DNA from: an uncultured Candidatus Altimarinota bacterium
GTDB lineage: Bacteria; Patescibacteriota; Gracilibacteria; BD1-5; UBA6164
Direction: 5' to 3'
Length of the DNA: 45,178 bases
Assembly (NCBI GenBank): GCA_938015455.1
Contig: CALLPL010000034.1
Span: 1 to 45,178, forward strand
The notes below the pieces were generated by a model, which worked only from the letters and a program-made list of their open reading frames with translations, did no database searches and was not told the DNA's origin. Shown here piece after piece: positions 24,734 to 43,295 of the stretch (position 1 is its first letter; each line of letters starts with the position of its first letter). The translations under genes were made by a program, and so were the position numbers.

Positions 24734-24747
24734 GTTTTTCAAAAAAA

Positions 24748-25104
24748 TGTAAGAGTAATAAGCCGGATTTTGTATCTCAGTATCAATCTATCTAGACTTA
24801 GAATCGCTTCTAAGCTCAAGCTAGGTATCTGCCGGTAAGCGATAGAGAACAATAACTTACCATTAGACCATTCCCATTGCATCACCCTGGGTTTACCACC
24901 ACACCTACATCACTGCAGGGGATCACTCTAAGAGTGACTTTTCACCTTTCACCCTTGCGGGCTAGTATAGTCTCTGCGGCACTAGCCGTTCCTTAAGTTT
25001 ATGAATTATACTCAAGGCCAAGGCCGTTAGCCTTAGGGCTGTTCTCATGATGTCCGGACTTTCCTCACTCTACTAAAAGTAAAGCGTAGATACTTGCTCT
25101 TACA
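24748..25104 (-). ncRNA. rnpB: RNase P RNA (class A)
   Basis: About 357 bases. RNase P RNA is the catalytic part of the enzyme that trims tRNA 5' ends. Conserved elements appear in order on the minus strand: P1 5' arm TGTAAGAG, GAGGAAAGTCCGGAC (CR-I), GAGAACAGCCC, the GGTGAAA region, GTGGTAAACCC, and near the 3' end ACAAAATCCGGCTTA (CR-V), closed by CTCTTACA, which pairs perfectly with the 5' arm. A T7 run follows directly, so P1 may also act as a first terminator. Ends were set from the P1 pairing; a TATACT box lies seven bases before the 5' end. Confidence 0.95.
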
Positions 25105-25110
25105 GGGGAG

Positions 25111-39816: not shown

Positions 39817-41691
39817 TTATAAGACCTTCTCCTCAACCTCTTTCAACACTCTCTCTACAAAATCTTCTACTTTTTCTACTGATTGTTCCTTTGTCTTATA
39901 GTTCCTCACCGCAACAGAGTGAGCTTTCATTTCTTCTTCTCAGACAACCAGAATATAGTTAATATGCATCTTCTCAGCATTGCGAACCTTTTTATTGAGA
40001 CTATCAGAACTATCATCAAGTTGCACCCTGATCCCTGCATCTTTGAGTTTTTTAAATACTTCTTCACTATACGCGTTAAAAGTCTCAGCTACAGGTACGA
40101 TAATCGCTTGACGAGGAGCCATCCAGAGTGGGAAGGTCCCTGCAAAGTGCTCTATAAATACTCACATTCATCGCTCAAGAGATCCGGCTATTGCTCGGTG
40201 AATTACGACTGGACGTTCTTTTTCTCAATCAGAATTCGTAAAACTCAGGTCAAATCTCTCAGGCTGATTAAAATCTACCTGAATTGTCGCAAGTTGCCAC
40301 TCTCGTCCAATAGCGTCCTTGAACATAAAATCAAGTTTTGGTCCATAAAATGCTGCTTCTCACTCGATTCTCTTATACGGTAATTCATTCTCCTGAGACG
40401 CTTCTTCTAGTGCTTTTTCTGATATTTCCCATGCTTCATCCGTTCCAAGATACTTACTCTTATCATCATCACGTACTGAGAGAGATACCCAATAATCATC
40501 AGTAAGACCAAGTGTCGTATAAAACTCTTTTACGATATCTGTAATAGCCTTTACTTCCTGCTTCACTTGATCTATACGACAGAAGAGATGCCCATCATCC
40601 TGAGTGATGGCACGTACGCGCGTAAGTCCAGAGAGTTGTCCTGATTTTTCATCACGGTAAATAGTAGCTGGTTCAAAGTATCTGATTGGCATGTCACGGT
40701 ATGAGAACTGATTATCAGCAAAGAGTTGCATATGATGTGGACAGTTCATAGGCTTCATGATAAAGGCATCTTCCTTTCCTTGAACTCTAAATAGCTCATC
40801 ACCAAACTTAGCAGCATGTCATGAAGTTTCATAGAGAATTTCTTTGGCAATATGAGGAGTCCATACTCTATCATATCATCGTGTTTTATGAAGATCCCAG
40901 AGATAGTCCTCTATAGCCCCTCTCATAATCATACCAGCTGGTTGCATGAGGGGAAGCCCTGGGCCGATAAGTTCTGAAACCGTGAAGAGTTTGAGCTTTG
41001 CTCCAATAATTCTATGATCACGTTTTCGAGCTTCCTCAAGCATTTTCAGATGAATATCAAGTTCTTCTTTATTCTCAAATGCATAAGCATAGATTCGAGT
41101 CAGTTGCTGATTCTTTTCATCTCAGAGCCAGTATGCTCCTGCCGTACGAGCAATTTTGAAGCTATTTGCGTCAAGTGAGCTTGTAGAAGTAACATGCTCT
41201 GGTCCAGCACACATATCGATAAATTTGAGGTTACGAACCTGATCTCCATCCATATGAGCCATGAAATCAAAGTATCATTTTTCTTGTATGTGATTTTGTA
41301 AATCAGAAGCCTGTCCTCATTTTCCTGTATTAATATAAAAACTAATCTTTCCGGTTATTTTCTCAGTATTTTTAAATTTTCCTGATTCGAGCATATCGAT
41401 AATCTCTATCTTAAAGTCCTCTCCCATGAGTTTTATAATCTCTCGAGCCTCATCATAGCTTACCTCAAACACTTGGAAGTCTTGGTTTTGAGAAATAATC
41501 TTCTTCATAGATTTTTCAATCGTCTTAAAATCTTTATCAGAAAACTCCCCGTCTCCAAAATCAAAATCATAGTAGAATCCATCATCTGTATACGGCCCCG
41601 TTGCTATCTTTGTCCCAGGAAAATTTTGCTGCACAGCCTGGGCCATGATATGTGCAAGCGAGTGTCTTTTAGTTTCTAGTGAGTAGTCCAT
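39817..41691 (-). CDS. thrS: Threonyl-tRNA synthetase
   Basis: 624 aa class II synthetase. The N-terminal TGS domain of E. coli ThrRS is absent; the protein starts with the editing domain [11 protein letters not shown], then the editing Cys/His region ([11 protein letters not shown]). Catalytic core: [31 protein letters not shown] (catalytic Zn Cys), motif 2 [17 protein letters not shown], and motif 3 with [20 protein letters not shown]. The anticodon-binding domain ends it ([22 protein letters not shown]). It follows pepE by 21 bases, and both are preceded by a leader whose Thr codons suggest control by threonyl-tRNA supply. Confidence 0.96.
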
Positions 41692-41712: not shown

Positions 41713-42336
41713 TTAGTCATAAATCAGTACTTCTCCATCTCGGAGAGCTTTAAAAAGTCGTTTGTTATCAATGTAGTATTGCACTTCTTTTTCGGTCATA
41801 TCAGACTCTGGGTGATCTGACCTAAAGTGTGGAGAGATAGAGAAATCTAGGATTCCTAACCCCTCCCATATCGTCTCCTTGATATCATCGTAGGGATAGC
41901 ATTCAGCATCGTCACACATTTCTATTCATTTGAGAGAAGGGGCTAGAATACAAATTCATGCGCTATATCAAGCATACACAAAGTCAGGATTATTTTTCTC
42001 ATAGTCTATGAGTATTTCATCAAATCAGCTAAGCTTATACGCTTGTCTCAAAACAAATGTATTTCCTCATGTGACAAACACTCATCCAAACTCTTGTAGT
42101 TTCGTTTCTAGTTCTCCCTGTTTTCAGAAAAAATCCCTCAAATCTAATTTCTCAACTACAATTCATAATACCTCTAATTCTTGCATATCTTTTAAAAGCT
42201 CATTTTGAAGTCATAAGTTAGATTCTGAATTATCGCATGCATTAGGAATAAATGCTATTTTTTTATTGTCTCAAAAAAGCTCGAATAATCTTTCGGGATT
42301 ATCTCAAAGTTTATAGGATGATAAATATTTTTTCAT
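41713..42336 (-). CDS. pepE: Peptidase E-like (S51 dipeptidase family)
   Basis: 207 aa. S51 peptidases remove N-terminal Asp dipeptides with a catalytic Ser in a GxSAG loop; here VYAGYSAGICILAP provides it. VFVTGGNTFVLRQAY supplies the conserved GGN strand, and SPHFRSDHPES the loop with a His that may complete the site. ATG 42336 sits directly after the leader terminator. It is the first gene of the operon with thrS, a combination that could recycle amino acids from peptides to feed threonyl-tRNA, though that link is inference. Confidence 0.8.
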
Positions 42337-42351
42337 GTTCAGATATTAAAA

Positions 42352-42377
42352 AAATCTCTCTATTTCTAGAGAGATTT
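42352..42377 (-). terminator. Attenuator terminator hairpin
   Basis: AAATCTCTC, loop TAGAAATA, GAGAGATTT, then T7 on the minus strand, ending 9 bases before the pepE ATG. A perfect nine-pair stem inside the leader, and its 5' arm overlaps the antiterminator partner. Confidence 0.85.
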
Positions 42378-42402
42378 GTAAGAGTTTCTTGTTTCTTGTA
42401 AC

Positions 42403-42459
42403 TTACAAAATCCCTCTGGAGAGAGTGAGGATAGTAGTGGTTACAAGTTGTGCTAGCAT
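42403..42459 (-). CDS. Leader peptide rich in threonine
   Basis: 18 codons, ATG to TAA: MLAQLVTTTILTLSRGIL. Four of 18 residues are Thr (ACC ACT ACT at codons 7-9, ACT at codon 12), with Ile and Leu around them, a composition like E. coli thrL. The three adjacent Thr codons overlap the end of segment 1, exactly where a stalled ribosome would free segment 2. The TAA lies inside segment 2a. A leader peptide for threonyl-tRNA sensing is inferred; no homologue is claimed. Confidence 0.75.
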   Translation of the reverse strand: MLAQLVTTTILTLSRGIL

Positions 42460-42490
42460 CAGAGTACTTGATTAGCTAAGTAATAATATG

Positions 42491-42518
42491 ATAGTATAGA
42501 AAACAGTTGGCAAGTCAA
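42491..42518 (-). promoter_or_regulatory. Promoter of the pepE-thrS leader
   Basis: Minus-strand TTGACT (42513-42518) followed by TACTAT (42491-42496) at 16 bases; TATACT at 14 bases is an alternative -10. It sets the leader start near 42484. Confidence 0.55.
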
Positions 42519-42557
42519 TTTTTTTCGTTCAGTAGGGAAGTGTGTTACAATACCTAT

Positions 42558-43295
42558 ATGAATTTCGTATATAAACACACAGAAGAAAAAAGACTTATAG
42601 AGAGTCTTTCACGAAGCCAACTCATCTCTGAGAAGCAGCTGTTTGAGATAAAAAATCTGTACTACGAGCGCGTTCCATATCATAATTTTCTCCATGCACT
42701 CAAGGTAGCTGAAGGAGTGCTTAGACTTCCTAGAGATGAATACAACATCATCGAAACGCAAAGTCTTTTTATTGCTGCCTTATTTCATGACGCTTGACAC
42801 ACTGGAACAGCTGAAGATTTAGATGAATTCAGATCACTCGATATGGCATTTCAGTGAATCATAGATTTTGAGAAAAAATATGATTACCAATGAATAGACT
42901 ATAGTATCGTTAGGAAAGCAATTATTGGAACAGTATTCAGAAATAGAGCAAAAAATACTGACTCTTATGCAATACTTTTAGCAGATCTAGATATATCTAC
43001 TCTTGGTATGAGTCTTCCTGAATATTTATACTTTTCTGACTTTCCTTTTTCACTTGAATGCTCTATCAAAATTGAAAACTGGATTCATGATCTAAGTTTC
43101 TTTAAGTTTATCACATGAGTTGATAAAAACATATTTCGTACTAAGACCATAAGAAAATTATACCCAGAAGCTCTTGGAAATATAAGAAAGTATAGTTTAT
43201 TAAAAGAAGAGAATATTAAGAAGATTTATAAATACTGGGAAGCTAAAAATGTTAGTTATGATGACTTTGAAACATTTTTCTATGAAAATATCTAG
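42558..43295 (+). CDS. HD-domain phosphohydrolase
   Basis: 245 aa. The metal-binding pattern is YHNFLHALKVAE, then FIAALFHDAGHTGTAED and a distal Asp (LLADLDISTLG), the H-HD-D set of HD/PDEase domains. Such enzymes hydrolyse phosphodiesters or nucleotides, including cyclic nucleotides; substrate not readable here. The remainder is helical with two or three Trp and Tyr clusters, and the C-terminus is Lys-rich (KIYKYWEAKN). ATG 42558 is preferred over an in-frame TTG 51 bases upstream, because the intervening segment overlaps the promoter of the opposite leader. It precedes pilT by 63 bases, but no operon evidence beyond direction is seen. Confidence 0.75.

Follow-up and report, generated by a model that had tools for sequence, protein, structure and literature searches.

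How does a bacterium with a recoded stop codon adjust its threonyl-tRNA synthetase (ThrRS), and is the short threonine-rich frame upstream of the synthetase gene part of the answer? We considered a stretch of 45,178 nucleotides (hereafter, the window), which is contig CALLPL010000034.1 of an uncultured Candidatus Altimarinota bacterium. An initial annotation of these letters proposed a ribosome-mediated threonine attenuator in front of "pepE-thrS". Its call of thrS is confirmed by TIGR00418 (629 bits, E = 9.9e-189). The gene contains 10 in-frame TGA codons (glycine in genetic code 25); because the family model nevertheless recognizes it as a normal ThrRS, TGA encodes an amino acid here. The preceding gene, which ends 21 nt before the start of thrS, does encode a Peptidase_S51 protein, but this product, named "pepE" in the annotation, scores 35 bits against the 156-bit cut-off for PepE proper. 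The neighbor upstream of the leader (42507-43295, plus strand) is divergent. Elsewhere, the window encodes a bacterial class A RNase P RNA (24743-25105, minus strand, 168 bits).

The leader and its alternative helices

The leader region (42348-42518, minus strand) begins with a promoter of the sigma-70 type. Next come a frame of 18 codons, four of them for Thr, and an intrinsic terminator; beyond it lie the S51 peptidase gene and then thrS. Every part that had been listed for it (promoter, 18-codon frame, stems, and a terminator with seven Ts) is found in the sequence. In the order of transcription, the features are:

42513..42518 (-): -35 box, TTGACT; TTGAC[AT]-15/16 nt-TANNNT pattern kept in relatives
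42491..42496 (-): -10 box, TACTAT, with a 16-nt spacer from the -35 box
42403..42459 (-): leader peptide frame MLAQLVTTTILTLSRGIL, conserved in relatives; stop codon TAA at 42405-42403
42440..42447 (-): segment 1, CTTGTAAC, 5' arm of the protector (from sequence and folding)
42433..42441 (-): regulatory Thr codons ACC ACT ACT; the fourth, ACT, is at 42426-42424
42402..42417 (-): segment 2a, AGAGGGATTTTGTAAG, 5' arm of the antiterminator, holding the leader stop codon (from folding and covariation)
42395..42402 (-): segment 2b, GTTACAAG, partner of segment 1, with one base in common with 2a (from sequence and folding)
42368..42382 (-): segment 3, CTTACAAATCTCTCT, 3' arm of the antiterminator
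42348..42377 (-): intrinsic terminator AAATCTCTCTAGAAATAGAGAGATTT and T-run (hairpin 42377-42352; T7 42354-42348)
41713..42336 (-): S51 peptidase gene (dipeptidase E-like; PF03575, E = 1.7e-21), the first structural gene
39817..41691 (-): thrS, threonyl-tRNA synthetase

A promoter is present, as had been claimed, but we read its -10 box differently: TACTAT (42496-42491) is the best reading because its 16-nt spacing from TTGACT (42518-42513) is kept in relatives. Transcripts would then start near 42484, which leaves about 25 nt before the leader frame. We see no evident Shine-Dalgarno sequence in front of the frame in the window. The codons of the frame (42459-42403) are ATG CTA GCA CAA CTT GTA ACC ACT ACT ATC CTC ACT CTC TCC AGA GGG ATT TTG TAA. 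Given the local Thr frequency of 4.3%, at least four Thr in 17 codons has a probability of about 0.005.

The antiterminator was first described as 8 bp between TTTGTAAG and CTTACAAA, with three bases shared with the terminator. We replace this with a helix of 15 bp, with one bulged T, between AGAGGGATTTTGTAAG (42417-42402) and CTTACAAATCTCTCT (42382-42368). Of the 11 bases in the 5' arm of the terminator, this helix takes 10, so the antiterminator and the terminator are truly exclusive. The leader's stop codon does lie within segment 2a, as the initial annotation had it (TAA 42405-42403 inside 42402-42417).

The 140-nt leader has a folding energy of -33 kcal/mol (z = -3.7), and none of 200 shuffles folded equally well. 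The minimum free energy structure includes the 1:2 protector. We also scored the conformers, as had been suggested. The predicted probability of the terminator is 0.96 in the ribosome-free RNA, 0.14 when a ribosome occupies the second Thr codon (modeled by covering the RNA to 12 nt past the start of that codon), and 0.96 when the ribosome is at the stop codon. The minimum free energy structure of the stalled state includes the 15-bp antiterminator, and UCUCUC from leader codons 12-14 additionally pairs with the 3' arm of the terminator.

The window contains 36 terminator-like hairpins, of which only three have an antiterminator that is better than shuffles. The thrS leader is far ahead, with z = -7.6 against -2.6. 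This duplex-based test recovers 35 of 48 known leaders.

Conservation and covariation in relatives

We located thrS in 93 of the 99 relatives that we searched and obtained upstream DNA from about 90. The counts below are our own, compiled from these searches, and genomes whose contig ends near thrS were left out. Of the 44 assessable members of the window's family, 42 have a Thr-rich leader frame and then a terminator in front of thrS or the operon that contains it; one of the 42 (G020) has a degenerate leader. In the rest of the order, about 12 of 19 have the leader ahead of thrS, two of them in a weak form with one or two Thr codons (G056 and G062). In one further family, all four members seen have it. 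Among the carriers of the leader, the records that have a name are Candidatus Gracilibacteria, including the complete genome 28_42_T64 (CP042461). The annotation had named close relatives without the Thr codons or the paired segments as evidence against an attenuator, and with 42 of 44 family members carrying the leader, that reading survives the comparison.

The comparison covered 48 leaders, each with a terminator, that precede thrS or the thrS operon. The most frequent form of the peptide is xLAQL[VE]T followed by Thr codons, with a mean of 4.3 Thr codons per leader. From the first Thr codon to the stop, Thr accounts for 42% of residues across these leaders, versus 4.3% in local genes. In 42 of the 48, the promoter pattern TTGAC[AT]-(15/16)-TANNNT is present, 24-35 nt before the start of the leader frame. 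As for codon choice, 34 of 48 leaders use ACC for the first Thr, and the later Thr codons are mostly ACT or ACA; ACC is rare in local genes (7 of 85 Thr codons).

A covariance model built from 30 leaders matched 27 of 192 genomes of the class, from three families only, and almost nothing elsewhere in the phylum. Many of the matches weaker than E of about 0.01, part of which we inspected, span just the terminator end of the model. When we scanned 84,980 species for the leader pattern, the matches with a leader-like frame and a terminator were from Gracilibacteria or other Patescibacteria. The remaining matches lie inside genes and look like chance.

The leader and thrS are adjacent in most relatives. 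An S51 peptidase gene separates them only in the window's genome and, along with extra genes, in G038; in several members of the order, other genes or repeats put the leader 0.5-1.8 kb upstream of thrS. The S51 gene is thus a local insertion, and the proposed attenuator of "pepE-thrS" is better described as a thrS attenuator with a passenger gene: control of thrS is supported, but the peptidase is nearly absent from this position in relatives.

The antiterminator beats dinucleotide shuffles in 37 of the 48 leaders at p ≤ 0.05, with a mean z of -2.4. To ask whether each arm fits its own partner, we permuted partners among leaders, which gives z values that are upper bounds because related sequences are not independent: the 2:3 pairing averages -11.95 kcal/mol with its own partner versus -8.46 when permuted (z = -9.7, 0 of 5,000 permutations), the terminator arms (3:4) have z = -15.6 (0 of 5,000), and a control pairing, 1:3, has z = -0.1. 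With one sequence per distinct terminator arm, z is still -8.8. At most arm positions, segments 2, 3, and 4 change together with both pairings kept; because those pairs were taken from the fold of the individual sequence, the weight rests on the permutation test. In a set of nine close relatives, both bases of the pair change in 6 of 15 antiterminator pairs (0-4 in slid controls) and in 6 of 11 terminator pairs (0-3 in slid controls). Thus, the compensatory changes that the annotation had proposed looking for are found in both the antiterminator and the terminator.

The 1:2 helix is another matter. Its own-versus-permuted z is -2.6, again an upper bound, and the set of nine close relatives has no compensatory changes in it. 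The stem as originally drawn, CTTGTAAC:GTTACAAG, holds for the window and its close kin, but many relatives pair segments 1 and 2 in another register, with GCACAA(C) of segment 1 against (G)TTGTGC of segment 2. A role in pairing is the likely reason that GCACAACTTGNAACC is so well kept. These observations weakly suggest a protector helix.

A proposed switch and its alternatives

We put the probability at roughly 90% that this leader works as a ribosome-mediated transcription attenuator, adjusting the output of ThrRS to the supply of threonyl-tRNA. That the parts exist, are conserved, and exclude each other, and that 2:3 covaries with 3:4, comes directly from the computations, and together with the folding switch this supports the annotation's reading of a classical amino-acid attenuator. 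Use of the promoter, translation of the leader, stalling, and a response to threonine are what we infer from it. If Thr-tRNA(Thr) is ample, the ribosome would reach the stop codon within segment 2 and cover that segment; segment 3 would pair with segment 4, and RNA polymerase would halt at the T-run, before the structural genes. If Thr-tRNA is scarce, the ribosome would stall on ACC ACT ACT and cover segment 1. Segments 2 and 3 would then pair over about 15 bp, no terminator would form, and thrS (and here the S51 peptidase gene) would be transcribed. In an untranslated leader, 1:2 would pair and free segment 3, and the terminator would form. In a good many relatives, equilibrium folding still favors the terminator in the stalled state, so cotranscriptional kinetics would be needed there.

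The strong conservation of the residues before the Thr run (xLAQL[VEG]T family-wide) could also be explained if the LAQL[VE]T leader stalls the ribosome through contacts with the exit tunnel, much as the TnaC and Erm leaders do, rather than through a shortage of Thr-tRNA. We consider this very unlikely. The conservation sits at the nucleotide level (GCACAACTTGNAACC), which fits pairing with segment 2, and the residues vary where pairing permits (LALL, LTQL, VARL, or MHLET). Other families have MKNTTTTTTTITE or MNTVSTTSTTTTT at the same place, and the number of Thr codons ranges from 2 to 7, as in codon-based sensing. Still less probable is a leader that senses tRNA or protein, whether a T-box or an mRNA site bound by ThrRS itself, as in E. 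coli, with the short frame being incidental. T-boxes do precede thrS in some other families of the class: two were found with the covariance model (G077 and G087, at L167 and L176) and two by the motif GGTGGAACCG only (G085 and G096, at L175 and L185). But no Rfam family, T-box or other, covers the window's leader at the gathering threshold, and the T-box model (RF00230) has no match in the window or in its genome. The window's family has a single weak T-box match (G014), and it is on a different contig than thrS. Also, the conserved feature is a translated frame, not a tRNA-binding motif.

As for an ordinary intergenic terminator beside a chance short frame, both elements are common in AT-rich genomes, as the 36 hairpins in the window illustrate. 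Because the upstream neighbor is divergent, however, the terminator has no upstream gene to serve, and its antiterminator stands out even from the few in the window that beat shuffles. The arrangement is conserved over families, and conservation and covariation already refute an accident, whose probability we regard as negligible.

The mechanism of the proposed threonine attenuator is familiar. The classical amino-acid attenuators are the thrABC, trp, his, and pheST leaders of enterobacteria; PMC1262725 cites a comparative survey as its ref. 8. Like them, the Gracilibacteria leader has a peptide rich in the regulatory amino acid, a stop codon inside segment 2, exclusive 2:3 and 3:4 helices with a putative 1:2 helix, and a terminator before the structural gene. 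But the classical thr attenuator controls biosynthesis, whereas this leader would control thrS, in a UGA-recoded CPR host, and the enterobacterial thr leader has no apparent sequence relation to it. In E. coli, ThrRS binds near the start codon of its own mRNA and acts on translation. This is likewise feedback on thrS, but the window has a transcription terminator ahead of the operon, and the 21 nt that separate thrS from the S51 gene leave little room for E. coli-type stem-loops, which resemble tRNA(Thr) and overlap the thrS ribosome binding site. The T-box of thrS, in Firmicutes and in some families of Gracilibacteria, also raises transcription by preventing a terminator; it reads uncharged tRNA(Thr) directly, while in the window's leader the ribosome would read Thr codons. 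The pheST leader of E. coli is a leader-peptide attenuator of an aminoacyl-tRNA synthetase gene. Others are those of leuS and trpS in Streptomyces (Actinobacteria; PMC1262725) and of hisS/hisZ in bacilli (Firmicutes; PMC2965389), which put the same device on a synthetase gene for other amino acids and in other phyla.

Other leaders in the genome and the class

Some members of the class have other kinds of thrS leaders. Besides the T-boxes, Thr-rich frames of unrelated sequence are found at thrS in G082, G092, G093, and G094. The G082 leader passes the antiterminator test (9/9 arm bases, p = 0.003), and our terminator finder reported no terminator at the Thr-rich leaders of the other three. A match to AsdA in L181 was below the gathering score and was set aside. 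The presence of T-boxes and Thr leaders at thrS in one class implies that two ways of sensing the charging of Thr-tRNA interchange there. The two modes stand in for each other at hisS across bacteria as well, according to PMC2965389.

The Thr-leader model also matches two other leaders in the window's own genome, ahead of proS and ahead of a trxB cluster:

C31:12864-12978 (-): proS leader MNKQMNLHLQPLNPSQ (L002/L238), with Pro codons and a terminator, ahead of the prolyl-tRNA synthetase gene
C7:1582-1727 (-): aromatic leader MRQISTWTYFYFYFYHEVRSFCMCLSK (L236), ahead of a small-protein/thioredoxin-reductase cluster

Leaders of the NWHLQPLNL type precede proS in the relatives G003, G004, G005, and G008 (at L280, L282/L243, L283, and L284). 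In the stalled state, the predicted probability of the terminator drops from 0.94 to 0.06 in G003 and from 0.60 to 0.03 in G005; the proS leader of the window's genome has no clear predicted switch. The aromatic-rich leaders take the forms STWTYFYFYFYHE and STWNFFYFFFSK and are followed by a terminator and then by genes for small proteins of no known family and thioredoxin reductase. Leaders of the STWNFFYFFFS type are found in G002 (L235) and G004 (L234). Two of the three aromatic leaders have strong antiterminators (13/13 and 11/11 arm bases).

The Thr, Pro, and aromatic leaders have a common core, CTTGNAAC or CTGCAACC, which lies at the regulatory codons or immediately before them. From the sequences, we read this as one device that was re-used with different codons; alternatively, the core may be kept for pairing only. 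More broadly, leader-peptide attenuation could be a family-wide device built on this core (CTTGNAAC or CTGCAACC), with Thr codons for thrS, Pro codons for proS, and Phe/Tyr codons for the thioredoxin-reductase cluster, and could either have displaced T-boxes at thrS within one CPR class or have given way to them there. We see the chances of this broader proposal as evenly balanced.

We also came across a Leu/Ile/Val-rich leader, MQTVFTALILVLQKSFLKVFFVV (L239 1501-1623, G002:C22), that has a terminator and precedes an unknown gene and a peptidase-like one; its antiterminator has 9/11 arm bases (p = 0.007). In another CPR family, MNIFLNKPTQNKLHHYHQLFQEEVDGF (L297 ~1481-1630, G254) has clustered His codons and a terminator ahead of a 212-aa protein. 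On contig C37 of the window's genome, a His-rich candidate ahead of genes including hisS and a candidate ahead of an aspartokinase-like gene both failed the antiterminator test, and L240 is a plain terminator after a gene.

In the openly accessible literature that we searched, we found no leader-peptide attenuator of thrS, nor any such attenuator in Gracilibacteria or another CPR group, so within that scope the annotation's claim of novelty stands. As far as that literature shows, this is a known mechanism, ribosome-mediated attenuation, on a gene and in a lineage for which we found no earlier report. Because so few CPR bacteria can be grown in culture, almost nothing is known about how they control their genes. 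A leader-peptide attenuator in these cells implies that they couple transcription tightly to translation, sense the charging of tRNA, and regulate an aminoacyl-tRNA synthetase gene. Within one class, a T-box and a leader peptide would sense one signal at one gene. The leaders also offer, for bacteria in which a stop codon has been recoded, a regulon that can be read and tested.
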